This document shows, piece after piece, positions 2,859 through 49,323 of a stretch of DNA of 64,000 nt. Source of the stretch: Terriglobia bacterium. GTDB taxonomy: Bacteria; Acidobacteriota; Terriglobia; Bryobacterales; Bryobacteraceae. Each line of letters starts with the position of its first letter. Positions within the stretch are counted from its first letter, which is position 1. The notes under the pieces are model-generated. The model worked only from the letters and a program-made list of their open reading frames with translations. It was not told the DNA's origin and ran no database searches. A program made the translations under genes and the position numbers. The stretch lies in contig JAIQFI010000001.1 in NCBI GenBank assembly GCA_020073345.1, positions 124,001 to 188,000 of the forward strand, given 5' to 3'.

Positions 2859-2865
2859 GTGCCGC

Positions 2866-2871
2866 AGGATA
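2866..2871 (-). promoter_or_regulatory. -10-like hexamer TATCCT before the DUF3303 gene
   Basis: TATCCT on the minus strand ends 7 bases before the ATG at 2858, and no Shine-Dalgarno sequence intervenes. It fits the leaderless pattern described in the findings. Confidence 0.45.
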
Positions 2872-2946
2872 TCAGGATTGCCTTGTGTGTATCCTTGTAC
2901 AGAGCTTCTAAAGACAATGTTTGTCGAGAGCTAGGAGAGCAAGACC

Positions 2947-4191: not shown

Positions 4192-4214
4192 GATAGAGCG
4201 GATACACCGCTTGT

Positions 4215-4220
4215 TACCAT
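4215..4220 (+). promoter_or_regulatory. -10-like hexamer TACCAT before trxB
   Basis: TACCAT ends exactly 8 bases before the trxB ATG and there is no Shine-Dalgarno site. This is the leaderless arrangement seen at several genes here. Confidence 0.45.
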
Positions 4221-4228
4221 AAATCCAA

Positions 4229-5152
4229 ATGCACAACGTCATTATTCTGGGCTCCGGGTGCGCCGGAAACACGGCTGCGATCTATACCGCGCGAGCCGGT
4301 TTGAAACCTCTGGTCATCATCGGCCACGAACCGGGCGGCCAGCTTTCGATCACCACCGAGGTCGAGAATTTCCCGGGCTTCCCTGAGGGTATCAACGGCC
4401 CCGACCTCGTCGAGAACATGAAGAAGCAGGCCGAGCGCTTCGGAGCCGAATACATGTGGGGCACAGTCGCGGAAGCCGACCTGTCTGTACGTCCGTTCAA
4501 GATCAACGTGGACGGTACGTGGATTGAGACGCGTTCACTGATCATTGCCTCAGGTGCTTCGGCCCGCTGGCTGGGCCTGCCCAACGAGCAGAAGCTGATC
4601 GGCCACGGCGTCTCGTCCTGCGCGACTTGCGACGGGGCGTTTCATCGCGACGGGAAAATCATGGTCGTCGGCGGCGGCGATTCCGCGATGGAAGAGGCCA
4701 ACTTTTTGACGCGCTTTGGCGCCGAGATTACGGTGGTTCATCGCCGCGATGAATTTCGCGCCTCCAAAATCATGCTGGATCGTGCGCGCGCCAACCCCAA
4801 GATCAAGTGGCTGCCTAACACCGTGGTCGAGGACATCCACGACGTCAGCAAAAATACGGTGACTAGCGTCAAGCTGCACGACTTGAAGACGAACCGCGTC
4901 TGGGAACAGGACGTCAGTGGTTTCTTCGTGGCCATCGGCCACATTCCCAACACCAAGCCGTTCGTCGGGCAGATCGATCTCGACCCGGAGGGATACATCG
5001 TTTCGCACGGCGGGGCGCGCACGAATATCCCCGGCGTGTTCCATGCGGGCGACGTCCAGGACCGCATCTATAAGCAAGCGATCACCGCGGCCGGCGCGGG
5101 TTGCATGGCCGCCATCGAAGCGGAGCGGTTCCTTGAAGCACAAGGCCGCTGA
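4229..5152 (+). CDS. trxB: Thioredoxin-disulfide reductase
   Basis: A 307-residue FAD/NADPH flavoprotein that reduces thioredoxin. The FAD-binding GSGCAGNTAAIYTARAGL is at the N terminus, the redox pair Cys131-Ala-Thr-Cys134 is in SSCATCDGAFH, the NADPH motif GGGDSAMEEANFL follows, and the FAD C-terminal signature is GVFHAGDV. Length and order match low-molecular-weight TrxB. The first glycine motif has Cys instead of Pro (GSGCAG rather than GSGPAG), a minor variation. The ATG has no Shine-Dalgarno site but a TACCAT hexamer 8 bases upstream. The following membrane-protein gene starts inside its 3' end. Confidence 0.93.
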   Translation: MHNVIILGSGCAGNTAAIYTARAGLKPLVIIGHEPGGQLSITTEVENFPGFPEGINGPDLVENMKKQAERFGAEYMWGTVAEADLSVRPFKINVDGTWIETRSLIIASGASARWLGLPNEQKLIGHGVSSCATCDGAFHRDGKIMVVGGGDSAMEEANFLTRFGAEITVVHRRDEFRASKIMLDRARANPKIKWLPNTVVEDIHDVSKNTVTSVKLHDLKTNRVWEQDVSGFFVAIGHIPNTKPFVGQIDLDPEGYIVSHGGARTNIPGVFHAGDVQDRIYKQAITAAGAGCMAAIEAERFLEAQGR

Positions 5153-5765: not shown

Positions 5766-7724
5766 TTAGTTATTCGTGTTCCGCGGACGCTCGAACTTCG
5801 CATTGATGTACTTCTGGGCTTCTTCGAGCGCGCCCTGGGTGTTGTCTTTGGTGCGCTGCGCGAGCTTATATTCGTTCACCGCCCGATCCCGCTGGTCGGT
5901 GATGTCGTAGATCTTGCCTATGTTGATGTGTGCCCACACCTCGGTCCACTTAGGCTCCAGATCGCCGGAAAGAGCCGCGCGGAACTCGTTGGCGGCAGCC
6001 TGATAGTTTCCCTGCAGGAAGTACGCGTCGGCGGTGCGGTAATGCGCCAGAGAGCTGTTCCGCTTCACGTCCAGCGCCTTCTTGTACTCATTGAGGGCTT
6101 CGGCGTACTCGGCGACCTCCATGAACTGTTCGCCTCGTTTGATAGCGACCGCCACGCGCATGTCGTTGTCGTAGCGCAGGAGCTGGCCCTTGGGATCGAG
6201 GACCACATTCTTCGGCTTTCCGAACGTTTCCACCGCGAAGTCCGTGGATGTTCCGGCTACTTCAACGGTTTTCTCCTCGGGATTGCCTTCGGTATCGATC
6301 CGCAGCGTGGCCGGCATGCGGAACGTGTCTAAGTCTTGCGAGATCTTGCCGTTCACGCGGAATCCCTTGGACGTCCGGAAAATGGTGTACTCCAGCTTGA
6401 ATTCCGGCGCGCCGCTCGATTCGATCCATTGCAGGAAAAAGTAATTGAGGCTCTTGCCGGATACCTCTTCGGCCACCTTCTGGAAATCCGCGGTGTTGAT
6501 CGATTTCCACGCGTAGCGCTCGGGCACGGCCTTGAGCAACTTGAAGAAACTCTCATCGCCCAGAATCGAGCGCAACATGTGCAGCACCGCCGCGCCTTTG
6601 CCGGCTGTGGCGGCCCAGAATTCCGGTGAGTAATCCTCCAGGCGGGCCGATTGCATCAGCGGGGGCTGTTCCACCGTCAATGCTTCCACGTAGGTGTCCC
6701 GGACCTGGTCTTGCATGGCTCCCGCGCCGCTGATGTTCTCGGTGTACATCAGCTCGGCATAACGCGCCATCCCGTTCTCGATCCACATGTGATTTCGAGT
6801 GGTGGGAGAAACCAAGGCTCCCCACCACTGCCGCGAGATCTGGTTGGCCAGCAGCTTCGTGTTCACTTCCGTGCCAATGGCCCGCGGCGAAAGGAACAGG
6901 ATGCCCGGCGCAGAATAGCCGTTTGGCGTCCCCGCCTCGGTCTCGATCACCATCAGGTTCCGGTTGGGCAGCGGACCGTACACGCCGCTCAGAAACTCCA
7001 CCGCGCGTCCGATCTCCTGACCGTAGGCGCCGGCCATGTCTTTGCGCTCCCGGAAGTACAGCGCGGTGGTGATACCGCCCGAGGCGACGTTGCTCGGGTC
7101 GCCCCGCACCACGGCAAAGCTCGCCGGGAAGGACGGAGTCACAGTCAGGAACCGCGCGGTGGTCTTTCCATCCGCAGCGGCGTCGTCCGACTCAAGCCCG
7201 CTAGCGATGACCTTGTACCCTGAAGGGACCGTAACCCGCAAGTCGGTAGTGAAACGGTCCGCAGTATAGTCGTTCACGGGGAACCATCGCGCGGGATACA
7301 TCAGGTATGCGAATTCGGGATGAATCGCGGCAAACTTGATGCCCCACACGGGCGATTCTTCGTTGCCGGTCAGCTTTCCGCCATACACAAACGTCAGGGT
7401 CGCCGGTTTGCCCTTGGGCATGGTTTCCGCCAGGCTCAACCGGACGGTCATGTCCTGCGCCACGCGCGAAGCGGGCACTTGCCGGCCGGCTCCGTCGGTC
7501 ACACTGTCGAGGGTCAGGGCGTTGTTGAGCTCGAAGGAAAGGCTGCTGGCATCATCCAGTGGCGTGAAGTGGACCTGGGCGGTGGCCCGAATGGTTTGCG
7601 CGTTCGGATCCAACTGCGCGTCAATCGTATAGCTGTCCACATCCATGCGTGGACGCTGAGCCTGCCCCTGAGCCAATACTGTGGCCGCAGCCAATGCAAG
7701 CGAACCCAAAAACTTAACTGGCAT
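5766..7724 (-). CDS. Secreted M1-aminopeptidase-like protein with lost zinc site and C-terminal TPRs
   Basis: A 652-residue protein with a signal peptide (about 1-22), an M1-type N-terminal beta domain (about 25-210), a gluzincin-like domain (about 220-450) and TPR-like repeats (about 525-645). The fold is recognisable from QWWGALVSP and MWIENGMARYAELMY. The HEXXH motif, however, reads NQISR (294-298) and the third ligand position, +19, is Asn317; the GXMEN substrate motif is also absent (SAPGILFLSP). All metal and catalytic residues are thus gone, so it should be a non-peptidase, perhaps a binding or scaffold protein. Start chosen at 7724 with GGAG upstream; it overlaps the lpxB stop by 11 bases. 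Confidence 0.8.
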   Translation of the reverse strand: MPVKFLGSLALAAATVLAQGQAQRPRMDVDSYTIDAQLDPNAQTIRATAQVHFTPLDDASSLSFELNNALTLDSVTDGAGRQVPASRVAQDMTVRLSLAETMPKGKPATLTFVYGGKLTGNEESPVWGIKFAAIHPEFAYLMYPARWFPVNDYTADRFTTDLRVTVPSGYKVIASGLESDDAAADGKTTARFLTVTPSFPASFAVVRGDPSNVASGGITTALYFRERKDMAGAYGQEIGRAVEFLSGVYGPLPNRNLMVIETEAGTPNGYSAPGILFLSPRAIGTEVNTKLLANQISRQWWGALVSPTTRNHMWIENGMARYAELMYTENISGAGAMQDQVRDTYVEALTVEQPPLMQSARLEDYSPEFWAATAGKGAAVLHMLRSILGDESFFKLLKAVPERYAWKSINTADFQKVAEEVSGKSLNYFFLQWIESSGAPEFKLEYTIFRTSKGFRVNGKISQDLDTFRMPATLRIDTEGNPEEKTVEVAGTSTDFAVETFGKPKNVVLDPKGQLLRYDNDMRVAVAIKRGEQFMEVAEYAEALNEYKKALDVKRNSSLAHYRTADAYFLQGNYQAAANEFRAALSGDLEPKWTEVWAHINIGKIYDITDQRDRAVNEYKLAQRTKDNTQGALEEAQKYINAKFERPRNTNN

Positions 7725-8877
7725 GAACCGTTTCTCCACCTTCGCTCCGCACACTATTTGCCGATTCCACCCAGTCTGCCGCGATTTCCATTGGATCCCG
7801 CTCGCTCCCTAGTTTCTTCGCAACTTCCACCAGACCGGCGCACATCGTTTCGCGCGCTTCCACGTCCTCTAACAGCCGCAAAGCCTCGGTGGCAATTCGT
7901 TCCGCCGTCATCTGGTCCTGGATCAGCTCGGGAACCACCTGCCGGCCTGCTACCAGGTTTACCATCGTCAGAAACGGCGTTCGAACCCGCCACCTCTGCA
8001 AATACCAACTTAACGCGTTTACACGGTAAAAAGTCACCATCGGGGTCCCCAACATGGCAGCCTCGATGGTTACCGTACCGCTCGCGGCCAGCGCCAACTC
8101 TGCTTGGGCCAGCGCATCCCAGGTATGTCCCTCTATCACTTGGATGGATTCGGCCTGAACGGGTTTCCAAAATCTTGTATTCTCAAGGCCGAATCCGGCC
8201 GGCAGCGGGAGCACGAAGCTAACCGCATGCCGCTGACGTATCAGCTTCGCGGCTTCGAGCAGTATAGGCAGATGGCGGGCCAGCTCGCCATGCCGGCTGC
8301 CTGGAAGAATAGCCACAATTCGTGTGACTTCCGGGACGCCCAGTTTCGAACACAACTCGGCGCGGGTGAGTTCGGGTTTCGCCAGGCGCGACAGGGGATG
8401 ACCGATATATACGGCGGGAACACTGTGCTTCTGAAAGAATTCTTCCTCGAAGGGGAAGATACAGAGAAGACGGCTGAGGGTCGCGCGCATGGTCTTTACC
8501 CTGCCCTGCTTCCACGCCCAGGCTTGCGGCGCGACCAGGTAGACGATCGGCACACCCTGCCGCTTGAGCTTTCGCGCCAGGGGCAGATGAAAGCTGGGGG
8601 AATCGGTGAGGATCGCGACATCGGGCAACTCGGCCGCGCAGGCGTGCACCAGCTTATTCATCTCGCCTAAGATGCGGGGGATGTGCGGGATGACTTCAAT
8701 AATTCCGACCACAGCCAGCGACCGTTGATCGACAACCGGGCGTACTCCGGCGGCTTGCATCCGCGGACCGGCGCATCCGAAGAATTCGGCCCCGGGATGG
8801 CGGGATTTCAGGACTTCCACCAGCCTGGAAGCGTACAAATCCCCGGAAGCTTCGCCGGCGGAAATGAAGATGCGCAC
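7714..8877 (-). CDS. lpxB: Lipid-A-disaccharide synthase
   Basis: A 387-residue GT19 glycosyltransferase that joins UDP-2,3-diacylglucosamine and lipid X at the inner membrane during lipid A synthesis. It begins with IFISAGEASGDLYASRLVEVL, the LpxB signature, and continues with YLVAPQAWAWKQGR and LPGSRHGELARHLPILLEAA, all conserved. The length is typical (380-390). Its presence shows a Gram-negative envelope. It stands alone, apart from lpxA/lpxD. The GTG start has no Shine-Dalgarno site; TAAGCT lies exactly 8 bases upstream. The M1-like gene starts within its last codons. Confidence 0.95.
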   Translation of the reverse strand: MRIFISAGEASGDLYASRLVEVLKSRHPGAEFFGCAGPRMQAAGVRPVVDQRSLAVVGIIEVIPHIPRILGEMNKLVHACAAELPDVAILTDSPSFHLPLARKLKRQGVPIVYLVAPQAWAWKQGRVKTMRATLSRLLCIFPFEEEFFQKHSVPAVYIGHPLSRLAKPELTRAELCSKLGVPEVTRIVAILPGSRHGELARHLPILLEAAKLIRQRHAVSFVLPLPAGFGLENTRFWKPVQAESIQVIEGHTWDALAQAELALAASGTVTIEAAMLGTPMVTFYRVNALSWYLQRWRVRTPFLTMVNLVAGRQVVPELIQDQMTAERIATEALRLLEDVEARETMCAGLVEVAKKLGSERDPMEIAADWVESANSVRSEGGETVHAS

Positions 8878-8885: not shown

Positions 8886-8891
8886 AGCTTA
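8886..8891 (-). promoter_or_regulatory. -10-like hexamer TAAGCT before lpxB
   Basis: TAAGCT on the minus strand ends exactly 8 bases before the lpxB GTG at 8877. The same hexamer at the same spacing precedes uppP. Confidence 0.45.
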
Positions 8892-8913: not shown

Positions 8914-8919
8914 TATAAT
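8914..8919 (+). promoter_or_regulatory. -10 element TATAAT before the PQQ dehydrogenase gene
   Basis: A perfect TATAAT in the 52-base gap between divergent lpxB and the quinoprotein gene ends 10 bases before the ATG at 8930. A transcript from it would carry almost no leader. Confidence 0.5.
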
Positions 8920-8929: not shown

Positions 8930-10747
8930 ATGCGCAGCTTACTGATTCTGTTATTAGCGACACCGGTGTTTTGCCAGAACGATTGGCCGGTTTATGCCGG
9001 CGACGCAAGCGGGCAACGGTATTCTTCGCTCAGCCAGATCGATACAAAGAACGTCGCGAAGCTCAGACTAGCCTGGCAGTACGGCGTAAAACCCAACGAA
9101 GATACACCTGGACGCGTTGCCGTGGTTCCCGCGACCGAAGTCACGCCGATCATGGCCGGCGGACTGCTGTACTACCCGACCACCGACCGCAGCGTGGTCG
9201 CGCTGGAGCCCGAAACCGGCAAGGAAGTGTGGAAGTACGACCTGGGCGCGGCTGCCCCGCGGCGCGGGCTTACGTATTGGGCGGGCGATGCTCAGAATGT
9301 CGCGCGCATCATCGTCGGCGACGGCAACGGCCGCATGATCGCGCTCAATGCCCGCACCGGCCGTCCGATTCCCGGATTCGGCGTCGAAGGTACGGTCGAT
9401 CTTCGCAAAGGTGTGGGCGAAAAATTTCCGCGCATCGTGTACCGGATGAGCTCGCCCGGCAACATCTACCGCAATCTGATCATCACCGGGGCGCAGGGGC
9501 AGGAGAACGATCTTAAGGGTCCACTGCAGGATGTTCGGGCCTGGGATGTCCGCACCGGCAAGCTGGTCTGGACCTTCCATCTCAACCCGCATCCGGGCGA
9601 GTTCGGCAACGATACTTGGCCCGCAGGATCTTGGGAGGATGCTTCCTCGCCCGCGGCGTGGGGCGCCGTATCGGTCGACGCGCAGCGCGGGCTGGTGTTT
9701 CTGCCGATCGGACAGCCGGCGCCACAATACTATGGCGGGATTCGACCGGGGACGAATCTGTTCTCGTCGTCGGTGCTAGCGCTGGATGCGGCTACGGGGC
9801 AGCGGAAGTGGCACTTCCAGATGACGCATCACGATATTTGGGACTATGACTCGGCCACTACTCCGGCACTGCTAGATGTCAAGCAGAACGGGCGAACAAT
9901 CCCTGCCGTGGTCGCGGTCTCGAAAATATCCCTGATGTTTTTCCTGAATCGCGAAACCGGCAAGCCCATCTATCCGGTGGAAGAACGGCCTGTTCCCAAG
10001 AGCGACGTCGCGGGCGAAGCCATCTGGCCGACCCAGCCATTTCCCGTGAAGCCGCCGCCACTGGCGCGGCAGAGCATTTCACCCGAAGAAATCTTCACCG
10101 GCGAGCCGGAGCACGAGAAGTTCTGCCGCGACCTGGTACAGCAGATCGGCGGCATTCATAACTCGGGCGCATACACGCCGTACAGCGACAAGGAATACCG
10201 GATCATCTTTCCCGGGCAGGTGGGCGGAATCAACTACGGCGGCGTCGCGGTGGATTCGAAGCTCGGGTACGTATTCGTGAACACCATCGACGAAGCCGGC
10301 ATGGGCATCCTGCGTAAGCAGGACGATACCTTCACGCGCTTCAGCCCGCTGGGAGCGGGCACGCACTACGCGCGCTTCTGGGATCCGGCGAAACAGCTCC
10401 CATGCCAAGCGGCCCCGTGGGCGCATCTGACGGCGGTCAACGCCAACACAGGCGATATAGCCTGGAGGGTTCCGCTGGGGACCATCGACGAACTGGAAGC
10501 CAAGGGCATGCACAACACGGGCGCGGTGGGACCGGGCGGACCCATGGCAACCGCGGGAGGGCTGGTCTTCATCGGCGCGACCATCGACAGGCGCTTCCGC
10601 GCGTTCGACTCGAAGAGCGGCAAAGTGGTGTGGGAAACCAAGCTGGACGCGGGCGGTCACGCGAATCCGATGACCTACATGGGCAAGGACGGCAAGCAGT
10701 ATGTGGTTATCGTGAGTTCGGGTGTCAACGCGTTCCGGCTGGAGTAG
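8930..10747 (+). CDS. PQQ-dependent dehydrogenase (quinoprotein glucose dehydrogenase-like)
   Basis: A 605-residue periplasmic quinoprotein with a signal peptide (about 1-16, ending FCQ) and an eight-bladed propeller built from W-motif repeats. NDWPVYAGDASGQRYSSLSQI at the start and DIAWRVPLGTIDELEAKG near the end resemble membrane-type glucose/quinate dehydrogenase propellers. It would oxidise an alcohol or sugar with PQQ and pass electrons to the respiratory chain. It has neither the N-terminal membrane domain of Gcd nor a CxxCH haem motif, so a separate electron acceptor is needed. No PQQ synthesis genes are in view. The start was chosen at the ATG directly before the signal peptide; the frame is open upstream. 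Confidence 0.85.
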   Translation: MRSLLILLLATPVFCQNDWPVYAGDASGQRYSSLSQIDTKNVAKLRLAWQYGVKPNEDTPGRVAVVPATEVTPIMAGGLLYYPTTDRSVVALEPETGKEVWKYDLGAAAPRRGLTYWAGDAQNVARIIVGDGNGRMIALNARTGRPIPGFGVEGTVDLRKGVGEKFPRIVYRMSSPGNIYRNLIITGAQGQENDLKGPLQDVRAWDVRTGKLVWTFHLNPHPGEFGNDTWPAGSWEDASSPAAWGAVSVDAQRGLVFLPIGQPAPQYYGGIRPGTNLFSSSVLALDAATGQRKWHFQMTHHDIWDYDSATTPALLDVKQNGRTIPAVVAVSKISLMFFLNRETGKPIYPVEERPVPKSDVAGEAIWPTQPFPVKPPPLARQSISPEEIFTGEPEHEKFCRDLVQQIGGIHNSGAYTPYSDKEYRIIFPGQVGGINYGGVAVDSKLGYVFVNTIDEAGMGILRKQDDTFTRFSPLGAGTHYARFWDPAKQLPCQAAPWAHLTAVNANTGDIAWRVPLGTIDELEAKGMHNTGAVGPGGPMATAGGLVFIGATIDRRFRAFDSKSGKVVWETKLDAGGHANPMTYMGKDGKQYVVIVSSGVNAFRLE

Positions 10748-11777
10748 CCGTCCAAGAAACCCAATTGCGGCGAACCAGTTGTCGCTTCAGTGCCTCGACC
10801 CGCTTGATATCCTCAGGAGCGAGGCTGGCGCGCTCCCGCTCACCAAGGCTTCTCGCGCGAGTTTCCCCCTGATTGGTCGACAGTTCAAGCCATGCGATGG
10901 CCTCAGCTATGTCCACGTGCTCTCGCCTGCGATCATTCAGCAATAGTTCTCCCAGCCTAAACTGGCACGGCGCTTGTCCCGCAGCAGCACACAATCGGTA
11001 GTAGTGGAGAGCACTGTCGTCATCTTGCTGGAAACCAAGCTCAGAGTTCCCTTTCTCATATACCGACCCTAGGAAATACTGCGCCTCGTTACTCCCCAAA
11101 TTGGCCGCGCTCCGAATCACCTCCTTGGTGCTTTCCAGATTAGCGCCGTGCGTTTGCTCCATGGATGCCGACGCTACGGTGAACATCGCAGGACCATACT
11201 TCGCTTCCGCCGCCCTCGCCATGAGATCGCGTGACTGGGTGGGATCCGGGGGAATCTCTTTCCCAGCCGAGAGAAGTTTTGCATAGACATACATGGCTTC
11301 AGGAAGTTTCTTGTGAGCGAGTCCCTGAATGTCTCTAAGGGCCCCTTCCTTTTGCTTGGGATCACCCTGAAGCTGCTGGAGGGCGTGAATCAATTGATTG
11401 CGGCTGTCCGAGGCTTTGCTCTCAATCCGAAAGTTGATCTCGATGTTCGCCGCCACCTTCACGGCCTTGCCGTCCTTAAGTCCCGGCTTAAATCGCCACT
11501 GGCTGATGGTCTCCAGCGCAAGTTCGTCCAATCCGAATCCGATAGGAGTCAGCACTCGGATATTCGTAGGCAGCCCTTGTTCGTCAACGACCAGAGTAAA
11601 CAAGATCGAGCCCTGAGTGCCCGCAGTGCGCGCTTCGGGCGAATACTTGGGCTCAGGTCGTCGAATAGGCGTGGGCGCTGAAACTCCCGATCCGATTCGA
11701 TAAACGTCCCCGGGAGACACCGATTGGCTGTAGCCGACAGATATTAGGATCGAAATCGCCAATATATGCCTGAGCAT
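10725..11777 (-). CDS. Secreted TonB C-terminal domain / Sel1-repeat protein
   Basis: A 350-residue protein with a signal peptide (about 1-18), a TonB C-terminal domain (about 35-120: PEPKYSPEARTAGTQGSILF, TISQWRFKPGLKDGK) and Sel1-like helical repeats (about 135-330: AMYVYAKLLSAG, AQYFLGSVYEKG, CQFRLGELLLND). It lacks the N-terminal anchor and proline-rich linker of real TonB, so it is probably a periplasmic protein-interaction factor rather than an energy transducer. GC is a little below that of its neighbours. The 3' end overlaps the convergent quinoprotein gene by 23 bases. The ATG at 11777 directly precedes the signal peptide and has TATAAT 7 bases upstream. Confidence 0.75.
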   Translation of the reverse strand: MLRHILAISILISVGYSQSVSPGDVYRIGSGVSAPTPIRRPEPKYSPEARTAGTQGSILFTLVVDEQGLPTNIRVLTPIGFGLDELALETISQWRFKPGLKDGKAVKVAANIEINFRIESKASDSRNQLIHALQQLQGDPKQKEGALRDIQGLAHKKLPEAMYVYAKLLSAGKEIPPDPTQSRDLMARAAEAKYGPAMFTVASASMEQTHGANLESTKEVIRSAANLGSNEAQYFLGSVYEKGNSELGFQQDDDSALHYYRLCAAAGQAPCQFRLGELLLNDRRREHVDIAEAIAWLELSTNQGETRARSLGERERASLAPEDIKRVEALKRQLVRRNWVSWTATPAGTR

Positions 11778-11784: not shown

Positions 11785-11790
11785 ATTATA
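11785..11790 (-). promoter_or_regulatory. -10 element TATAAT before the TonB-C/Sel1 gene
   Basis: A perfect minus-strand TATAAT in the 26-base gap after the preceding gene ends 7 bases before the ATG at 11777, with no Shine-Dalgarno site between them. This suggests the gene has its own start site. Confidence 0.5.
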
Positions 11791-11803: not shown

Positions 11804-12406
11804 TTATTTGGTTTTGAGCGTCACACCCCCGAAATATAGGAACACCACGCCGAGCATGCTCACTACGTGGTACACGCCGTTGCGATCCAGAGGGCTGAGG
11901 GCATCCCATCCCATTACCTGAATCGCCGAAGCGACGGAAAGGATCAGCAGACCCGCGGTCAAATGAATCGACCGAGCTTTGATGCTCATCCCCAACAAGA
12001 GCAGCATAACCGGCGCGTAGTTCAGAATCACGTCCAGAAAACTATCGACCAGCAGAACCGCCGCCGAATCGGCCGCGAACTGGATCACCGCCGCAATCAG
12101 CAGGATCCGCTGAAAGCGCGGCGCGAAGAACTGCTTCGCCGTCGTCAGCAGCAGGCAAAACGTCACGCCGCCCAGCGCGATCCAGTCGGCGCGTTGGATG
12201 AAGTACCGCGGCAATTGCGCGGATTCAAAGAAGCCGTGATCCACGGCCCCGATCAGCGCGGCCACTCCCAGCAGCAGCAGCACGCCAGTGAAATACCACG
12301 CCGCGGAAAAGCGAGCTTTGGGAATCCGGCTCATCCTGCCGGCCAGGAAGAACACGAGGCTCGCCAGCAGGATGTTGGTGATGGACGTTACGGCCAGTAC
12401 GCTCAC
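11804..12406 (-). CDS. Polytopic membrane protein of unknown function
   Basis: A 200-residue protein with about seven hydrophobic helices (for example LLASLVFFLAGRM, GVLLLLGVAALIGAVDHGFF, ILLIAAVIQFAADSAAVLLV, MLGVVFLYFGGVTLKT). The pattern, including a charged or aromatic DHGFF after the second helix, reminds me of the DUF6962 family, but I am not sure. There is no catalytic motif. The GTG start overlaps the stop of the DUF885 gene (GTGA), so the two are translated as a unit. Confidence 0.6.
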   Translation of the reverse strand: MSVLAVTSITNILLASLVFFLAGRMSRIPKARFSAAWYFTGVLLLLGVAALIGAVDHGFFESAQLPRYFIQRADWIALGGVTFCLLLTTAKQFFAPRFQRILLIAAVIQFAADSAAVLLVDSFLDVILNYAPVMLLLLGMSIKARSIHLTAGLLILSVASAIQVMGWDALSPLDRNGVYHVVSMLGVVFLYFGGVTLKTK

Positions 12407-14064
12407 AAGGTGGGCGAGTCGTCCCCAAGCAGCGCCTTCCGCACGATCTTGATCGGCGGGAAGCCCTGCTTCATGAAGTTGTTGTGAAACTCCTCCAGCG
12501 AAAACGCCGAGCCCTTCTTCGCCCGATAATCGTCGCGCAGCTTGAGGATCTGCAGCTTGCCCAGCGTGTAGTAGAGATACGTCGGGTCAGAGGTTCCGCG
12601 TTTGGTTTCGCGCACCGCAGTCTCGTGCGTCTGATAGCCCTCTTTTTCGAAGAACTCGATGCCCTGGTCGAACGTCCGCTTGCCGGTATGCATCTCGATG
12701 CCGACGATGTAGCGGGCATCCCGTAACAGCGCATCCTGTAACTGTCCCAGACGCATTTTGGGATCGCCGTTGGTGTAGCCCTCATCGAGCATCATCTGCT
12801 CGGCATAGTGGGCCCAACCTTCGGCGTTGGAACTGGCGCCCAGCAGCTTGCGGACCTTCGAATCGACGTGCTGCATCCACAGGAACTGCACGTAGTGGCC
12901 GGGATACGCCTCGTGAATCGCGGTGCTCAGGATCGTGCCGCGATTAAACGCGCCCATGAAATCCTCGACGCGCTCCTTCGGCCAATCTTTCTCTGGCAGT
13001 GTGACGTTGAAGAACGCCTCCTTGGCGACGGTTTCGAACGGCCCGGGCGTGTCCATGGACGCGAACGTCAGCGCTCGCATGAACGGCGGCGTCTCCTCCA
13101 GAATCGGCGGCACAGGTGAGGGAATGGTGACGATCTTGTGTTCCTCGATAAACTTCGTCAGCCCGCCCAGGGTGTCGCGAAAAGCGTCCAGCAGCTTATC
13201 ACCAGAAGGATGGTCCTTCTCCATGTCCGCCAGAATCTGCTGGGGCGTCTTTTTGGGATCGATGCGAGCCGCGGTTTCGGCAAATCGTTTTTGGTTGGCC
13301 CGGAGGTCATCGTAACCTATTGCCAAGAGGCGGTCCAAGGGAATGTCGACCATCTCCTCGTACTGCAGCTTTTTGGCGTAGGTTGACGGGCCCAAGCGGA
13401 AATCGCCCTGGGAGCGCGCCAGCAGATCCTTCTTCATCCATTGCTCGTATTCCTTGAGCGACGAGATGACCGCGTTATTGGCCGCGCGGAAATCGGCCAC
13501 TAGCTTCGCGTCGGTCACGGCCTTGAACGCCAGCGGAACGTCGTTCTCGAAGAATGAGATGTTGCCCGGCATCTGCTCGATCGCGACCTCGGTGTAGATC
13601 CGTGGCGGATTCTTGAGGTTCGCGCGAGCCTCGGCCAGGACCTTGGGCATCAGCCGTTCACGCGCAGTGAGGGACTTCAGGCGCGCTTCCGGCCGAGCGA
13701 AGGTGCGGCTCATGATCACAAAGGCGCTGTTGGTGATGCCGCTCGAATAGTTGTCGGGATTCCGCTCCCAGCCGCGCACCGTTTCAAGTTCCAGGAGGCT
13801 GGCGCGGACCGAATTCAGGACCAGATCGCGGTCGGGCGATTCGGGCAGGCTGGCAAATTCGCTTTCGAACTTCTTCAGAGCCGCCACGCGCTTCGCGACG
13901 CCCGCCTTGGAGTAATCCTCGAGTTTGTCATCGTACTTGTGGATGCCCGCCGACGTCGCGGTAGTGGGGCTGAACGGGAAGTAATATTCGTCGACAAAGC
14001 GGTCGTAGGCAGTTTGTGCCGAGGCCGCGGTCAGGAGAGTAGCCATGATAAGGAGAATCCGCAC
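12403..14064 (-). CDS. Secreted DUF885 family protein (putative metallopeptidase)
   Basis: A 553-residue protein with a signal peptide (about 1-16, ending ASA) and a DUF885 domain for the rest. It contains HEAYPGH (His384-His390), the family's HExxxGH metal motif, followed by [11 protein letters not shown], which supplies a third ligand (Glu). These features are intact, so a zinc-dependent carboxypeptidase-like activity is plausible, although few members have been tested. Length is normal for the family (550-600). It is divergent from tyrS with only 24 bases between starts, so the two promoters must overlap. Confidence 0.85.
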
Positions 14065-14074: not shown

Positions 14075-14080
14075 TACAAT
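14075..14080 (+). promoter_or_regulatory. -10-like hexamer TACAAT before tyrS
   Basis: TACAAT ends exactly 8 bases before the GTG chosen for tyrS. On the other strand the overlapping TAGATT (14071-14076) lies 6 bases before the DUF885 gene's GTG, so one A/T-rich patch may serve both genes. Confidence 0.45.
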
Positions 14081-15398: not shown

Positions 15399-15399
15399 G

Positions 15400-19652: not shown

Positions 19653-20375
19653 CTATCTTAGCAGCCAAGCCTGAGAAATCACCGCGAGCGCGGCGATCAC
19701 GGCTGTTTCGGCGCGCAAGATCAACGGTCCCATCGAGACTGGGATCCATCCGGCGGCAGCAAAAGCGCCGTGTTCGTCGTCCGTCCAGCCACCTTCCGGG
19801 CCGGTGAGGATGTTAACGGTATCCTGCACGGTGCGCACGGCGGGGAGCGCCCTCATGAGCGGCACTGCTCCCGGGGTTTCGTCCAGCACGTAGCGATAGG
19901 TCCCCGCACGAGCTAGTGCCTGGGCCAGCGGAACAGGTTCAGTGATCTCCGGGAGAAGCGTCCGGCGAGATTGTTGGCTGGCTTCGAGCGCGATCCTCCG
20001 CCAGCGCTCGACTCGTTTAGCAGCAGCCTTCTCCAGGCCGCGATCGCTGCGGGTTGCTTCCACCGGGACGATTTCACTCACGCCCAGCTCGGTAGCTTTT
20101 TCTACAATCCATTCAAAACGATCGAACTTAATGAGCGCAGCGTATAGCTCGACGCGCGCTGAGGGCTCCGGGGGCGGAAGTTTTTCCAGCGTCCGAAAAA
20201 CGACGCTTTCTTTGCGGGCGGTCTCAATCTCGGCCAGATACACATCGCGGTTATCGGAGATTTCGTAACGCTGTCCCGCTTCCACGCGCAGCACGCGGGT
20301 CAGGTGACGAGCCTCGTCGCCTTCGATCTGGGCCTTGCCGTTGCGGACCTCATTGACAAAAAAACGCCGTCTCAC
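19653..20375 (-). CDS. rsmE: 16S rRNA (uracil-1498-N3)-methyltransferase
   Basis: A 240-residue SPOUT methyltransferase that modifies U1498 of 16S rRNA. An N-terminal PUA-like part (about 1-70, RRFFVNEVRNGKAQIEGDEA, HLTRVLR) is followed by the knotted domain with EWIVEKATELGVSEIVP and ILTGPEGGWTDDE, both RsmE signatures. I chose GTG 20375, which gives the usual N terminus; the frame is open further upstream only through the ruvA region. It is divergent from ruvA with 23 bases between start codons and heads a five-gene minus-strand operon. Confidence 0.9.
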   Translation of the reverse strand: MRRRFFVNEVRNGKAQIEGDEARHLTRVLRVEAGQRYEISDNRDVYLAEIETARKESVVFRTLEKLPPPEPSARVELYAALIKFDRFEWIVEKATELGVSEIVPVEATRSDRGLEKAAAKRVERWRRIALEASQQSRRTLLPEITEPVPLAQALARAGTYRYVLDETPGAVPLMRALPAVRTVQDTVNILTGPEGGWTDDEHGAFAAAGWIPVSMGPLILRAETAVIAALAVISQAWLLR

Positions 20376-20384: not shown

Positions 20385-20391
20385 TATCCTA
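20385..20391. promoter_or_regulatory. Shared divergent -10-like palindrome between rsmE and ruvA
   Basis: On the plus strand TATCCT (20385-20390) ends exactly 8 bases before the ruvA ATG. On the minus strand TAGGAT (20386-20391) ends 10 bases before the rsmE GTG. The two hexamers overlap, so one short patch may start both transcripts. Confidence 0.45.
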
Positions 20392-21008: not shown

Positions 21009-21014
21009 TACACT
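21009..21014 (+). promoter_or_regulatory. -10-like hexamer TACACT before ruvB
   Basis: TACACT ends exactly 8 bases before the ruvB ATG, and a TTGGTT sequence lies 16 bases further upstream (20987-20992). There is no Shine-Dalgarno site. ruvB may therefore have its own start site in addition to read-through from ruvA. Confidence 0.45.
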
Positions 21015-23862: not shown

Positions 23863-23868
23863 TAGAAT
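23863..23868 (+). promoter_or_regulatory. -10-like hexamer TAGAAT before the penicillin acylase family gene
   Basis: TAGAAT ends 6 bases before the TTG at 23875. The only GGAG nearby (23870-23873) is one base from that codon, too close for a normal Shine-Dalgarno site. Confidence 0.35.
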
Positions 23869-26995: not shown

Positions 26996-27101
26996 ACGAT
27001 TTATCCTAGACTACGAGGAACCGAAACAAGGACGGGATCGCATGTTGCTGGAGGAGGCTATCGCCATCGGCGGCGCGTTCGTCGTGGTCTCTCGATTCTA
27101 G
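26988..27101 (+). CDS. Possible 37-residue protein or gene remnant
   Basis: The only content of the gap between the pseudogene and the next minus-strand gene is an ATG frame of 37 codons on the plus strand, overlapping the pseudogene's start codon region by 8 bases and the next gene's stop by 4. The product has a charged N-terminal half (DYEEPKQGRDR) and a hydrophobic tail (AIGGAFVVVSRF). It has no Shine-Dalgarno site and resembles no family I know. It may be the end of a decayed gene or chance. Confidence 0.2.
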   Translation: MRIRFILDYEEPKQGRDRMLLEEAIAIGGAFVVVSRF

Positions 27102-27805: not shown

Positions 27806-27841
27806 GGCCAAAGCGTATCAGAAAGAGCGACACTGAGGGGC

Positions 27842-35608: not shown

Positions 35609-35614
35609 TAAGCT
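35609..35614 (+). promoter_or_regulatory. -10-like hexamer TAAGCT before uppP
   Basis: TAAGCT ends exactly 8 bases before the GTG start at 35623, with no Shine-Dalgarno site. Both sequence and spacing are the same as before lpxB. Confidence 0.45.
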
Positions 35615-43748: not shown

Positions 43749-46717
43749 CCCCCTCCTTCCTTTAACCCCTCACAAACCCCTCCCCAAAACAAACACTTCC
43801 TGCACTGTTCTCCCACTTTCAACGGAAACTGAAGCTGATCCTGCGCCTCTCGTAACTCCCCTACGGTATTTCGCGCGGCTGCCAGATCTGCATCGGTTAA
43901 GCTGATTTCGACAATCCGGCTCGAACGGAGATAGTACAACACAGCCCGATCCGGATGTCGTCCTGCATAGCGCTCCAGAGCGAGTGCATAGAGGCGCAGT
44001 TGCAGCGCGTAGCCCTCGGACGCGGTTTCGTCCCGGTCGGTCTTGTAGTCGACGATGACCAGCTCCCCGCCCTCTTCAAACCATAAGTCGATTTGACCGC
44101 GTACGATCACGTCATCAACTTCAAACAGGAAGTCGAATTCCCGTTCGATGCGAGAAGCCGTCTCTGCACGGCGTCCTAGATCGCTCGAGCGGAAACGCGC
44201 GGCCAGTTCGTTGGCTTCATCGGAATCCACTGCTTCACCTGCAAGCGCGCGGTGCACCTCCAGTCCAAGCTCGATCGCACCCGTACCCGGCCGGTCTGGC
44301 GTCGGCTCGAGACCTAGATACCGGCTGAGATAGTACCTCCGGGGGCAAGCCTGAAACATCGCTGCCGAGGTGACGGCCACCGCGGAATCGTACTGGCCGG
44401 ACACCACAGGAGGCTCGAGCACGTCTTCCGCGGCGCCTGGCGCGGCGGAGGCAGCAGCGTTGGGTTCCGGCGGCGCAGCCGTCTCCGGGATCGCCGATTC
44501 GGCGAGCTTCTGCCAAGGTGAGGATCTCTTCCGCTCGGCATGCGACAAGATCAGCCGGTCTTGCGCACGCGTCATCGCCACGTACAACAGCCGGTTTTCT
44601 TCCGCCGCTTCCTGTCTTTCGATTTGCTCGACAAGCGCTGTGTGGGCGGAATCGGACACGCCCTTGCCTGTCACGGGATGCCGCCACTTCACGCCCAACC
44701 CGGTTCCGCGCGACACGGCGATCACGGGCTTTCTCCGATCCGGCCCGCGATGCAGCGCGCTCACGAAGACCACCGGAAACTCCAGCCCCTTGGCGGCATG
44801 GATGGTCATCATGCGAACCACATCGCCTGCCTCGGGCGGTGGCGCTTCGGCAACACTTTGCGTCCAGCGCAACGCTTCCAGATCTTCGAGTAACTCCGCT
44901 AGCGGGCGAGGATGATCGCGGAACTCGCGACGCAGCCAAGCCAGAAGCTTCTCGACATTGGCGCGAGACCGATCCGGCAGGCCAGCCGTGTAGCCGCACT
45001 GATCCAGCGCCATCGCGATCAAACGGTCCGGCGTAAGAAACCCGGCCAGTTCCCGGACTCGCCCGAAGCGTTTTTTGAACTCCACGCGCCAGCCCTCGCG
45101 ACCCATTTGATAGATCTGGTGATCGCTTAAACCGACGAGCGGCCCGCGCAGCACGCCGATTAGCGGTATCTCATCCAGCGGATTCACCAGCGAGGCTAGC
45201 AGCGCGAGCAAATCGCGGGTTTCACGCGCTTCCAAGAAGGTCCTGCCGCCGCTAAGCAGGAACGGGATGCCGAGACGATCGAAGGCTCGCTCAAACGGCG
45301 CAGTGGAGCTGAGCGTGCGCACGAGTACCGCTATGTCGCGGTAATCGAATTCGCGGCTGTCGACGAACTGGCGGATGCGCGCCGCTACCAGAGCGGCTTC
45401 GGTCTCCGCGGCTTCCTCACCCCGTCCTACGAGCCGCTCGATGGCGACGCGAGCAGGCGCGAACTTCGCGTGCGCCTCCAGCGGCCGCGCCTCGATCCCG
45501 GGCTGGCCGTCGAGCATGGCCGAAACCGTCGTCAGGATCTCCGCGCGGCTGCGATGGTTCTCCTTCAACTCGTCGATTACCGCGCCCCTTGCCCGCAATT
45601 CGTCGCGGTATTCGGCGAACACTTCCGGATCGGCATAACGAAACCCGTAGATGGATTGGTTGATATCGCCCACTCCGAAGAAACTCGTCCGGAGCAGGTT
45701 CATCAAGCGCCACTGCAAACGATTGGTGTCCTGCAACTCGTCCATCAAAATCTGCTCGAACCGGCCGGAGACTTGACGCCGCACCTCGTCATCCGATTCC
45801 AGCAGCGCGACGGTAAGCTCCTCCAGATCGGCGAAGTCCACTGCGGTATCCTGGCGTTTTTTTGCACGATAGGTCACGCCCAGGCGTACGATCGCCGCCC
45901 GCAGCAGATCGTGCAGATCGCTGTAGCAGTCTCCCACCCATCGCGCTTCCAGCGCCGGCAGGACTTCCTTTTTCAAACGAGTCGCCGCCAAATTCCTGCC
46001 CACGCGCGTCAGGTTGAAATCGAATCGCCCGAGCACCTCCAGGTTCGGTTGCGCGAGAAACTCCACGGCCCACTCCCGCAGGCGCGACCCCTCGGCGCCC
46101 TTCGCGGGAGTTCCCGCCAACGCTCGCGCGAGATCCCGTGCCTCGAGAGAAGAATCTGCCGAACGCGTAGCGTCCGGAATCTCGGTGATCCCCGACAGCC
46201 GCATCGACTCATACACGTCCAGCAGACTCTCCGCCAGATCCGGCTGGCGGCCGTCATCCTGAGTCGAAAGATCCAGCGCCTCCAGCAGCCGCCGCATCCG
46301 TTCCGGTTGCTCGCGATACATCGCGTCGAGGGATGCCTCGACCGCTTCACGCGCCAACCGGTCGGCCGCAGCCTGATCGAGCACCTTGAAATCGGGGGCC
46401 AGGCCCGCGCGGATCGCGTTCTCCTGCAGCACGCGGGCGCAGAAGCCATGAATCGTGGATACCCACGCCCGCTCGATCGCCTCGCGCCGCGCCGGCTTGG
46501 CCACGAAACGCTGGATCAACCGGCCCTTGATCTCATTGGCGGCTTTCTCGGTGAAGGTGATGGCCAGGATCCGCGAAGGATCTACTCCACGTTCTTTTAC
46601 CAGCCACGCGAACCTCTCAGTGAGCACGCGGGTCTTGCCCGAGCCAGGCCCGGCCACCACGCACACGTCCTGCCCGGTACGCTCGACCGCGCGGCGCTGG
46701 TCGTCTGACAAAGTCAC
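43739..46717 (-). CDS. addA: AddA/RecB-like helicase-nuclease (UvrD family)
   Basis: A 992-residue DNA repair subunit that unwinds broken DNA ends. Walker A VVAGPGSGKTRVL opens a UvrD-like motor (about 1-700; motif II MDELQDTNRLQWRLM, late motifs MTIHAAKGLEFPVVF and LLYVAMTRAQDRL). The C-terminal third is a PD-(D/E)XK nuclease with GQIDLWFEEG and VIVDYKTDRDE. Unlike classical AddA it also has an iron-sulfur-type cysteine set: ACPRRYYLSRYL and CRKCLFWGGVC. GTG start overlaps the addB stop (GTGA). Confidence 0.88.
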   Translation of the reverse strand: MTLSDDQRRAVERTGQDVCVVAGPGSGKTRVLTERFAWLVKERGVDPSRILAITFTEKAANEIKGRLIQRFVAKPARREAIERAWVSTIHGFCARVLQENAIRAGLAPDFKVLDQAAADRLAREAVEASLDAMYREQPERMRRLLEALDLSTQDDGRQPDLAESLLDVYESMRLSGITEIPDATRSADSSLEARDLARALAGTPAKGAEGSRLREWAVEFLAQPNLEVLGRFDFNLTRVGRNLAATRLKKEVLPALEARWVGDCYSDLHDLLRAAIVRLGVTYRAKKRQDTAVDFADLEELTVALLESDDEVRRQVSGRFEQILMDELQDTNRLQWRLMNLLRTSFFGVGDINQSIYGFRYADPEVFAEYRDELRARGAVIDELKENHRSRAEILTTVSAMLDGQPGIEARPLEAHAKFAPARVAIERLVGRGEEAAETEAALVAARIRQFVDSREFDYRDIAVLVRTLSSTAPFERAFDRLGIPFLLSGGRTFLEARETRDLLALLASLVNPLDEIPLIGVLRGPLVGLSDHQIYQMGREGWRVEFKKRFGRVRELAGFLTPDRLIAMALDQCGYTAGLPDRSRANVEKLLAWLRREFRDHPRPLAELLEDLEALRWTQSVAEAPPPEAGDVVRMMTIHAAKGLEFPVVFVSALHRGPDRRKPVIAVSRGTGLGVKWRHPVTGKGVSDSAHTALVEQIERQEAAEENRLLYVAMTRAQDRLILSHAERKRSSPWQKLAESAIPETAAPPEPNAAASAAPGAAEDVLEPPVVSGQYDSAVAVTSAAMFQACPRRYYLSRYLGLEPTPDRPGTGAIELGLEVHRALAGEAVDSDEANELAARFRSSDLGRRAETASRIEREFDFLFEVDDVIVRGQIDLWFEEGGELVIVDYKTDRDETASEGYALQLRLYALALERYAGRHPDRAVLYYLRSSRIVEISLTDADLAAARNTVGELREAQDQLQFPLKVGEQCRKCLFWGGVCEGLKEGGGQT

Positions 46718-49311
46718 GAGGCCACCTGAACACTTTCCTCAGTCAGCACAGCCGACTCCACCCGGCAGATATCGCAAAAGTCGCACCACCGGCACTTCAG
46801 CGGATCTCTCGGATTAACAGCGATATCCCCAGAGGTAATCGCTTCGTGCACGCGCACCGCGGCGCTCTCGGCGTCGTCGATCATTCCGCGCAGCACTTCG
46901 CGAGTGGTCGATGTCCCGAGTGACTCGAGGCCGGGGACGCTCACGTGCCAGCCGTCCCAGGTCACATCTTTTTTCAAACCGCAGAACAGCATCGCCACCG
47001 GGTCGAGCCCGAAGGCGCGCGCGGCCGCCGCCAGGTATAATCCGCCTTGCACCAGGTGACCCTCGCCGGTGTCTTCCACGCGCTCGCGAATCTTGTTCCC
47101 CGCGCTGTATTTGTAGTCGATCACCAGGGCCTGGTTACTCGGGCCCACATCCAAACGGTCGATGCGGCCGGTGATAGTCAGAAGGGGATTAAGCGGATAG
47201 CTGAACTTTTCTTCGACGCGCGTGGACCAGTTACGGAGTTGGAACTGGGTATCATCGAGGAATCCGAGGAAATGGCGCATCAGCTCCAGCCGTACGGCCT
47301 CGGTGCGATATCCCTCGGGCACTTGCAGGCCCGCGCACTCTTCCTCGAAGATCTGATCCAGGATTGCCGAGCCGAGCAACGGCACCCGGGTCCATTCGGC
47401 CAGCGCGCGATGGAGAATACTGCCCTGAAGCAGCAGGTCAAGCCTATCGCGCGGCGCCGGTGGACGCCTCCGCAGCCGCAACGTCTTGCCCGCAAAGAAC
47501 TGAAACGGACATTGCAGGAAACTCTCAATGCCTGTCGCACTCAAGGTCTTAGGTGAAAAGTGGGGCGGGTCTCCAGACCCGCGCCGGACGTCCACGTCCG
47601 GCTGCACGCGAGGCACGACAGGGCGGCTTATGACAGCCGCAAACTCGCCTTCCAAGAAGAACGACGGCAGCGTATCTTCCCCTTGCTCATCGAAGCGCGG
47701 GTAACTGAGGACGGTTTCTTCCGTCGCCCGCGTGGTCGCCAGCTCGAACAAGAATCGTTCTTCCGATTGACGGTCCGCCGCTGTATCAAGACCTACCCGG
47801 TGACGTGTCGCGTCGCCCAAGATCGGATCCTCGCGATGATACTGCGGAAAATGCCGTTCGATCAGGCCGCAGACGAAAACAATCGGCAGTTCCCACTGTC
47901 GCGCCTCGTACACGTCCATCACGTGGACCACGTTCCGGCGCGCATCGGGCACGCGCAGCGGCTCAAGTGCGAGTGCGGCTTCCACCTGCTTCCAGAACAC
48001 AGCCAGAGCACACCTGCCGGATCTCTCGGCCCCAGCGGCGACGCCGGTGAGCGCAGCGGCCGCGCCGTCGAGGATTTCTTCAAAGGCGGCCAGCGCGGCG
48101 GAGGTCGATCGCCACACCAGAATGTCGTCGCGATCGGCCGAGTCCGCCACTCGCGGCGCGGGCACCAATGTGCGCAGCGTTTTCAGGCGAGCCGACCACT
48201 CCTGAGGTTCCAGACGTTCGCGACGCCAGCCATCCAGCTGCGCCAAATGATCGAGGCCCGCAGGCAAGGGCAAACCGGCGGCTGGGAGCTTATTGCGCCA
48301 GGTGAAATCGAGGTGGTCTCCGGCCACAGTAGCCCCCAAACCGGAAACCGGCATGCGAACGGCCGCCAGCATTGTTTCGTGGTCCCATCCGGCGAGCATC
48401 GCCCTGACCACATGGATCAGAAACGTCAGAGCCGGGTGAGATCCCAAAGGATGGTGAAAGTAAAATCTCGCCGGGATTCCGAAACGCGCCAGCGTCGTCT
48501 CCACAGAGCCCGCATAAGGATCGCGCGAACGCAGCACGATGCCCATCTCACGGAACGCGCGGCCTTGCGCGGCATATTTGAGAATCCGCCGGGCGATCTC
48601 CTCCACTTCGCGTTCGACGGTGGCAGCGGAAAATCCGGTCCGGCTGGCGGAGCGACTTGCGGAAGAAAGCCTCTGTTCGACGAATCCTCCCGACACGAGT
48701 ACCTGGCGAACAGCCTGCGAACCCGGCCAATCCGGAAGCGTGATGGTGACCTCGGTGCGCTCGCCCAGCGCCAGAACCAGGTCGGTTTCCGCGGCTGATA
48801 ACGTGAAAAATCCGTCCAGGACAATGTTCGCCGAGGCAGGATAAGAGCCACTTCGAACAGCTTGCGCGGCGCTCCGCAGACGCACGTGCCGCAATCCGAG
48901 CCCGCGAGCCCTCAGGTTCCTCCCGACCTCCTCTTCCAGACTCGCCAGGTCCGCCGGCAGCTGCGCCGCCGATGCTTGTTCAAAGAGCTCCGCCAGCGAG
49001 CGGCGGAAACCAGGGAATCCCGCTACCGCGGTGAAACGCTGCGGGCGCTGCCTATCCAGCGCCTGCTCGATGAGCAGATCGAGAAGCGCCGCGGGAGCTG
49101 CCCCCTGAGGGGACCATTCCTCCAGGCAGTGCGCTAGCGTGCGGATTTCACGCGGCCGGACCGGGAATCCCGATCGGGCCAGCCAATGGCGGATGTGCTC
49201 CACCATGGTGGCGGTGGGCAGGATGAGAAGACGATCCGGCTGAGACTTGAAACGTTCCAGCGTTACGCGGGATTTGCCGGACGCAGGAGCACCTGTGATC
49301 AGGAGATTCAA
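46714..49311 (-). CDS. addB: AddB-like nuclease subunit with iron-sulfur-type cysteines
   Basis: An 865-residue partner of AddA. The N terminus keeps a Walker A (ITGAPASGKSRVTLE), the middle resembles an inactivated helicase that scans for Chi, and the C-terminal third (about 590-865) is a PD-(D/E)XK nuclease: ITGRIDRLDVG, VIDYKYSAG. Iron-sulfur ligands are likely in SFLQCPFQFFAGK and KCRWCDFCDIC. It is shorter than Bacillus AddB (about 1160). Just before the nuclease domain it contains an in-frame repeat element (47560-47602). The TTG start has TATAGT 6 bases upstream and no Shine-Dalgarno site. Confidence 0.85.
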   Translation of the reverse strand: MNLLITGAPASGKSRVTLERFKSQPDRLLILPTATMVEHIRHWLARSGFPVRPREIRTLAHCLEEWSPQGAAPAALLDLLIEQALDRQRPQRFTAVAGFPGFRRSLAELFEQASAAQLPADLASLEEEVGRNLRARGLGLRHVRLRSAAQAVRSGSYPASANIVLDGFFTLSAAETDLVLALGERTEVTITLPDWPGSQAVRQVLVSGGFVEQRLSSASRSASRTGFSAATVEREVEEIARRILKYAAQGRAFREMGIVLRSRDPYAGSVETTLARFGIPARFYFHHPLGSHPALTFLIHVVRAMLAGWDHETMLAAVRMPVSGLGATVAGDHLDFTWRNKLPAAGLPLPAGLDHLAQLDGWRRERLEPQEWSARLKTLRTLVPAPRVADSADRDDILVWRSTSAALAAFEEILDGAAAALTGVAAGAERSGRCALAVFWKQVEAALALEPLRVPDARRNVVHVMDVYEARQWELPIVFVCGLIERHFPQYHREDPILGDATRHRVGLDTAADRQSEERFLFELATTRATEETVLSYPRFDEQGEDTLPSFFLEGEFAAVISRPVVPRVQPDVDVRRGSGDPPHFSPKTLSATGIESFLQCPFQFFAGKTLRLRRRPPAPRDRLDLLLQGSILHRALAEWTRVPLLGSAILDQIFEEECAGLQVPEGYRTEAVRLELMRHFLGFLDDTQFQLRNWSTRVEEKFSYPLNPLLTITGRIDRLDVGPSNQALVIDYKYSAGNKIRERVEDTGEGHLVQGGLYLAAAARAFGLDPVAMLFCGLKKDVTWDGWHVSVPGLESLGTSTTREVLRGMIDDAESAAVRVHEAITSGDIAVNPRDPLKCRWCDFCDICRVESAVLTEESVQVAS
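47560..47602. repeat. Double-hairpin repeat inside addB
   Basis: GTGGGGC is followed by two perfect hairpins: GCGGGTCT/AGACCCGC (47565-47582, loop CC) and GCCGGACGT/ACGTCCGGC (47583-47602, loop CC). The layout is that of the intergenic element at 26095-26141. It is translated without disrupting the frame, contributing about 15 residues (VQPDVDVRRGSGDPPHF) before the addB nuclease domain. Confidence 0.65.
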
Positions 49312-49317
49312 GTTCCC

Positions 49318-49323
49318 ACTATA
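49318..49323 (-). promoter_or_regulatory. -10-like hexamer TATAGT before addB
   Basis: TATAGT on the minus strand ends 6 bases before the TTG start at 49311, in the 28-base gap after the upstream gene. No Shine-Dalgarno site is visible. Confidence 0.4.

Follow-up and report, generated by a model that had tools for sequence, protein, structure and literature searches.

The 64,000-nucleotide window analyzed here (positions 124,001–188,000 of contig JAIQFI010000001.1; C37:124001-188000 in our numbering) belongs to the 6.23 Mb draft genome, in 98 contigs, of a Terriglobia bacterium of the order Bryobacterales. The element in question is a TANNNT hexamer, which the original prediction had listed 6–10 bases before the start codons of 13 genes of the window, with leaderless transcription as the proposed consequence. 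All 13 hexamers are found in the window at the claimed spacings, and the same hexamer is concentrated close to start codons in a larger sample of the genome.

A spacing of 8 bases separates the hexamer from the start codon for trxB (TACCAT, 4215..4220, + strand; ATG of 4229–5152), lpxB (TAAGCT, 8886..8891, − strand; GTG of 7714–8877), tyrS (TACAAT, 14075..14080, + strand; GTG of 14089–15306), ruvA (TATCCT, 20385..20390, + strand; ATG of 20399–20998), ruvB (TACACT, 21009..21014, + strand; ATG of 21023–22048) and uppP (TAAGCT, 35609..35614, + strand; GTG of 35623–36468). The spacing is 7 for the DUF3303 gene (TATCCT, 2866..2871, − strand; ATG of 2556–2858) and the TonB/Sel1 gene (TATAAT, 11785..11790, − strand; ATG of 10725–11777), and 6 for the penicillin-amidase-family acylase gene (TAGAAT, 23863..23868, + strand; TTG of 23875–26091), the WEGA gene (TACGCT, 27812..27817, − strand; ATG of 27098–27805) and addB (TATAGT, 49318..49323, − strand; TTG of 46714–49311). 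At spacing 10 are the hexamers of the PQQ dehydrogenase gene (TATAAT, 8914..8919, + strand; ATG of 8930–10747) and of rsmE (TAGGAT, 20386..20391, − strand; GTG of 19653–20375), the latter being the ruvA box reversed. Pfam matches are consistent with the gene names checked (ruvA and ruvB were left out) and include PD-(D/E)XK nuclease and UvrD_C domains for addB.

Genes were called with a home-made finder that relies on coding statistics and the type of start codon and is blind to any upstream signal. It recovered 9 of the 13 listed starts; the DUF3303 gene was not called, and the starts of addB, TonB/Sel1 and WEGA were placed further downstream. Gene finders blind to the box are therefore expected to misplace some starts. 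Within the window, 9 of 55 called genes have a box at spacing 6–8. These are seven from the earlier list, an unsupported gene (49340–49681, − strand; TACTCT at spacing 8, kept in 0/1 relatives) and a gene absent from that list, identified as MacB/FtsX-like from Pfam (TAAGAT, 19655..19660, − strand, spacing 6; TTG of 18563–19648). The TTG of this gene lies 4 bases past the end of rsmE, and TANNNT occurs close to the start in 8/8 of its orthologues; from its sequence we count it among the boxed genes of the window.

Positional enrichment and sequence context

The sample examined consists of the window and 60 further stretches, 1,201,547 bases (1.20 Mb) in all, with a G+C content of 60.5%. From the 926 genes called we used the 905 with 60 bases of upstream sequence, dropping 21 near stretch ends. 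TANNNT is present at spacing 6–8 before 84 of the 905 genes (9.3%), compared with a background of 3.0% (about 9 sites per position at spacings 20–49; binomial p about 2e-19). The counts at spacings 6, 7 and 8 are 31, 27 and 27, placing the first T of the hexamer 12–14 bases before the start, whereas the signal falls off at 9 and 10, with 12 and 17 sites versus about 9 per position. Bins of three positions further upstream hold 27.0 sites on average. Shuffling the 30 upstream bases gave a mean of 29.8 (standard deviation 5.2) and a maximum of 44 over 200 runs, so the predicted enrichment at −14 to −9 relative to shuffled sequence, whose absence would have spoken against the pattern, is present.

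Three further controls were considered: (i) internal in-frame ATG or GTG codons have TANNNT at 6–8 in 133/14,357 cases (0.9%); (ii) nine decoy patterns range from 0.81 to 1.53 times their respective backgrounds, with ATNNNA (50 versus 32.7) at the top, whereas TANNNT reaches 3.11 times; and (iii) Escherichia coli MG1655, with starts called by the same finder rather than taken from annotation, shows no peak (3/232 at 6–8, background 5.0%). When alternative starts within 90 nt were allowed, TANNNT was found for 143/918 genes versus 61–115 for eight decoys, an excess that is not clearly larger, and the base at −1 differs little between boxed and remaining genes of the sample. The excess at 6–8 amounts to 57 of 905 genes (6.3%), and that at 5–11 to about 79 sites (8.8%); extrapolated to the whole genome, this would correspond to a few hundred genes with a box.

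Only genes without a Shine–Dalgarno (SD) motif, defined as GGAG, GAGG or AGGA at −20 to −4, show the excess, in agreement with the predicted association of the box with genes lacking such a site. Among non-SD genes 79/640 have a box at 6–8 (background 2.6%), compared with 5/265 SD genes (background 3.9%; Fisher 5e-8). The 3′ end of the 16S rRNA reads GGATCACCTCCTTTCT, and the anti-SD sequence GGATCACCTCCTTT is therefore intact. With respect to gene arrangement, boxes precede 43/270 divergent genes (background 4.8%), 12/273 co-directional genes with a gap <20 bp (1.0%), 16/119 with a gap of 20–60 bp (3.1%) and 8/192 (4.2%) with a gap of at least 60 bp (3.2%). The absolute excess is largest at divergent and short-gap genes; among divergent pairs, 16/70 are boxed where 60–120 bp lie between the starts and 7/94 where 120–400 bp do.

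The boxes, often TANAAT or TANACT in sequence, also differ from other TANNNT sites in their surroundings. In these comparisons the counts were rebuilt from rounded percentages, and the control set of TANNNT 20–50 bases upstream of starts may itself include ordinary promoters. An upstream TGn accompanies 16 of 85 boxes, compared with 4.5% of 9,635 genomic TANNNT (p 1.4e-6) and 26/269 of the upstream set (p 0.033). T at −17 is found with 44.7% of boxes versus 18.9% of genomic and 29.7% of upstream TANNNT (p 0.012 for the latter), and TTG at −35 spacing with 11/85 boxes versus 4.5% of all genomic TANNNT but, with no clear difference, 23/269 of the upstream set (p 0.29). Together these traits would fit a promoter of the sigma-70 type, in part with an extended −10 element and a weak or absent −35 element.

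The association with missing SD motifs could also be read at the level of RNA, with the hexamer acting as a ribosome-recruiting UANNNU within a normal leader and no promoter box involved. Restriction of the box to genes without an SD motif is what a substitute signal would be expected to produce, and the excess within operons (12 versus 2.6 expected) is a larger multiple than that at divergent genes (43 versus 13.1). In absolute terms, however, divergent genes, each of which requires a promoter of its own, show the greater excess (about 11% versus 3.4% of genes). TGn and T at −17 upstream of the box, for their part, characterize promoters and have no obvious function in mRNA. In other phyla, a TANNNT so placed is a −10 element, as passages of a recent paper describe (PMC12340547). 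We regard a purely RNA-level signal as improbable, and a −10 box as the better account of the hexamer.

Conservation at orthologous starts

Starts of window genes were compared with those of near orthologues in 14 relatives, genes with fewer than four orthologues being left out of the sums; because the closest of these relatives have much upstream sequence in common, not all orthologue rows are independent. Of the 21 genes that qualify, 8 are boxed and 13 unboxed. The boxed genes have TANNNT at 5–10 in 64/71 orthologues (two control bins: 5/71 and 2/71), and the unboxed genes in 7/97. In a wider set, from which rows without a usable start or near a sequence edge were skipped, 90 of 140 orthologues of six genes have TANNNT at 5–10, with 9 and 3 in the control bins.

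For individual genes, the near orthologues and the wider set give 6/6 and 20/29 for trxB, 10/12 and 19/29 for lpxB, 11/12 and 15/29 for tyrS, 10/10 and 18/28 for uppP, and 5/6 and 17/24 for the acylase gene; ruvA and ruvB have TANNNT in 7/8 and 7/9 near orthologues. The addB box is kept in the single orthologue found, with homology extending to residue 1, and the boxes of the DUF3303 and PQQ dehydrogenase genes are likewise kept in the single relative found for each (the PQQ dehydrogenases being 89% identical). For TonB/Sel1, a single relative (39% identity) could be aligned near the start, and it has no TANNNT at the corresponding place. The WEGA gene has no orthologue among the 14 relatives and no Pfam hit.

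The DUF885 gene (12403–14046, − strand), divergent from tyrS, presents a different picture, with no box near its start. In 7/9 of its orthologues a TANNNT lies further off, 24–29 bases before the start, which resembles a leadered promoter.

Larger numbers of loci are available for the ruv genes. A RuvB scan of genome_contigs, from which the best 80 of 161 relatives were kept (99–72% identical), yielded sequences mostly labelled Bryobacterales, Bryobacteraceae, Terriglobia or Acidobacteria. Upstream of ruvB, TANNNT occurs at spacing 7–9 in 46/80 loci, and at exactly 8 in 29, compared with at most 9/80 in any three-wide bin from 10 outwards. An SD motif accompanies 4/46 boxed loci versus 20/34 unboxed loci (Fisher 1.5e-6), an exclusion that is partly due to the two elements sharing the same space. 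Upstream of ruvA, 26 of 60 loci have TANNNT at 7–9, compared with a maximum, from 10 outwards, of 12/60 in bin 14–16. Two record names in this collection are probably wrong: CALQCC020000008.1 is titled Bordetella parapertussis, yet its RuvB is 85% identical to that of the window, and a record titled Nevskia soli has a RuvB 77% identical.

Loci of another family of the same order (our f3; L173–L175, L228–L235 and L259–L265) have no TANNNT at 5–10 before trxB, tyrS and uppP, and they mostly lack an SD motif as well, but TANNNT does stand before ruvB in strain F-183 (L054), at spacing 9. Judging from these loci, the set of leaderless genes seems to turn over at the family level. A single-contig genome from another family of the order has 1 box at 6–8 versus 0.7 expected, with only 40 genes in 80 kb. 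In the stretches from relatives, 78/462 genes are boxed, although these stretches were picked around the same genes and do not give an unbiased rate.

The rsmE hexamer lacks support as an element of that gene. rsmE and ruvA are 23 bp apart, and the TATCCTA (20385–20391) between them reads as a −10 box on both strands; the rsmE TAGGAT and the ruvA TATCCT are thus one 7-bp stretch, and the 13 listed sites are not independent. None of 8 near orthologues of rsmE has TANNNT at 5–10, and in three the hexamer falls at 3–4, too close to the start, and mirrors the ruvA box. GGAG is present in 3/8, and three others have only an AGGA inside the mirrored TAGGAT, which weakens the argument from SD sites and leaves the case resting on the missing box. 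In the wider set TANNNT occurs at 6–9 in 11/56 loci, 7 of them at spacing 7, and some distant relatives may therefore have an rsmE box of their own.

These comparisons bear on two further explanations of the boxes. That short hexamers rich in TA, lying in upstream DNA of higher AT content, were selected by eye is hardly credible for the collection: the hexamer is a short motif, chance alone would yield about 27 of the 84 sample matches, and rsmE resembles such a case, but the shuffled maximum falls far short of the 84 observed and the box recurs in nine-tenths of the orthologues of boxed genes. Chance is refuted for the boxes as a set, with TonB/Sel1 and WEGA excepted. It is also very unlikely that the boxes belong to ordinary leadered promoters of genes whose starts were mis-called, the true start lying downstream behind an SD site. 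The downstream placement of the addB, TonB/Sel1 and WEGA starts by the sample-trained finder is what such an error would produce. Alignments nevertheless reach residue 1 in some orthologues of trxB, lpxB, tyrS, uppP, ruvA, ruvB, the acylase gene and addB, and the box remains near the start in the orthologues, also where that start is GTG or TTG. What the sequences show directly is the motif, where it stands, that it avoids SD genes and that orthologous starts conserve it.

The −10 box reading and known leaderless systems

It is very probable, from the sequences compared, that in a minority of genes TANNNT is a −10 box giving leaderless or nearly leaderless mRNAs (0–2 nt). This reading draws on the positional peak, the limitation to non-SD genes, the conservation among orthologues and some extended −10 features. 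The working −10 role itself, the position of the transcription start and the mode of ribosome loading we infer from these properties. Transcription normally starts about 6–7 bases past a −10 box; a box at spacing 6 would consequently place the first base on the start codon, and one at spacing 8 would leave a leader of 1–2 bases. For the PQQ dehydrogenase gene, spacing 10 would give a leader of about 3–4 nt. The prediction that transcripts begin at or near the start codon fits the tests run, except that for spacing 8 a very short leader rather than none is expected.

The mechanism we propose is as follows. In a minority of genes the −10 box would end 6–8 bases before the start codon, and RNA polymerase carrying the housekeeping sigma factor would begin transcription on that codon or 1–2 bases before it. 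The resulting mRNA would be too short at its 5′ end to hold an SD site, and the ribosome would start on a 5′-terminal AUG, GUG or UUG. The remaining genes would have ordinary leaders, many of them with SD motifs. Translation from a 5′-terminal codon is discussed for other bacteria in parts of the literature (PMC12340547). Our best reading is that roughly 6–9% of genes are leaderless or nearly so, beside normal SD initiation. The ‘many’ leaderless genes of the original prediction are in this respect a real excess, but one of only about 6% of genes at spacing 6–8 and about 9% at 5–11.

Several observations weigh against the −10 interpretation. About a third of the 84 matches would arise by chance, and the start calls are the output of a home-made finder. 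TTG at −35 spacing does not distinguish the boxes from upstream TANNNT (11/85 versus 23/269, p 0.29), and sites with at least 4 matches to TTGACA are not enriched (16.5% versus 14.4%). The spacing in trxB orthologues ranges from 5 to 10, with one at 3. As a multiple of background the excess in operons is not below that at divergent genes, and the raw rates therefore overstate the operon contrast. Finally, co-directional genes with gaps of at least 60 bp show almost no excess, which is not fully explained.

Acidobacteria are common in soil and are largely known from metagenomes. Leaderless genes with a TA-like signal were reported by Zheng et al. 2011 for 3/3 Acidobacteria genomes at an average of 13.3% (9.7–19.4) (PMC3160421), so the phenomenon is already known for the phylum and the present genome is a further example. 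This genome, a draft of the metagenome type with 98 contigs, is unlikely to have been among those three. In both data sets TANNNT lies about 12 bp before the start; our estimate is somewhat lower, and the first T is spread over three positions here (PMC3160421). In Deinococcus–Thermus, experiments described in sections of a further paper showed that TANNNT next to open reading frames is a −10 element giving leaderless mRNA (PMC12340547). The likeness lies in the hexamer directly before the reading frame, but about one third of Deinococcus radiodurans genes are concerned, several times the share estimated here from sequence alone. The original prediction had named Deinococcus and some other phyla as known for the pattern. 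Excerpts on Mycobacterium tuberculosis, a member of another phylum, describe an extensive leaderless transcriptome from mapped start sites, a more direct kind of evidence than ours, and TANNNT appears 12 times in that text (PMC3898074). GeneMarkS-2 predicts leaderless transcription, as cited in the StartLink paper (PMC9581028). No word beginning ‘Acidobacteri’ occurs in the StartLink paper text or in the main text of PMC12340547, and our literature search, with PMC3160421 and PMC10783764 among the matches, found no mapped acidobacterial transcription start sites.

Possible sharing of boxes with neighboring genes

Since the ruvA box is readable from both strands, a bidirectional promoter serving rsmE and ruvA was considered. 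The symmetrical TATCCTA is present, but it is conserved in the ruvA direction only, and the candidate was rejected. Bidirectional promoters generally have their symmetry in the −10 element. Those described in passages of two papers (PMC12825309, PMC10268837) resemble the two-strand −10 of TATCCTA but differ from it in that here one direction is kept. Among short divergent pairs, TANNNT stands at 5–11 on both sides in 7/30, three of which contain TANNNTA. Bidirectional leaderless promoters were rejected as a general design, the 7/30 being in keeping with independence of the two sides (12/30 and 15/30).

A second possible form of sharing involves the stop codon of the upstream gene. In 18 of the 46 boxed ruvB loci, an upstream TAA or TAG stop provides the TA of the box. 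The frames ending there are at least 100 codons long, and 12 of the 18 span 201–215 codons, about the length of RuvA, although each was not identified as RuvA. In loci such as L049, L050, L058 and L065, the ruvB box TAAGCT opens with the TAA stop of the upstream frame. With a gap of 9–11, a T occupies the sixth place after 3/10 TAA or TAG stops, which gives no demonstrable enrichment over base composition, and the overlaps counted in the genome sample, given below, may be free letters supplied by stop codons.

We raise, as a tentative and rather doubtful proposal, that Bryobacterales orthologues switch between SD-led and leaderless initiation and that in some lineages the leaderless promoter was built from the end of the upstream gene. 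Stop codons, by supplying box bases, would then seed internal leaderless promoters in operons, and ruvB, for example, would gain a transcript separate from ruvA. Overlap of a stop codon with a leaderless promoter was not found in our literature search, which was too narrow to claim that it is unreported. Where one gene is preceded by a −10 box in some relatives and by an SD motif in others, its orthologues offer a natural experiment on switching between two modes of translation initiation. In the sample, 6 of the 12 boxes less than 20 bp from a co-directional neighbor overlap the stop codon of that neighbor, three through the TA and three through the final T. The MacB/FtsX-like gene of the window is among these, the final T of its TAAGAT doubling as the first base of the stop codon of rsmE.

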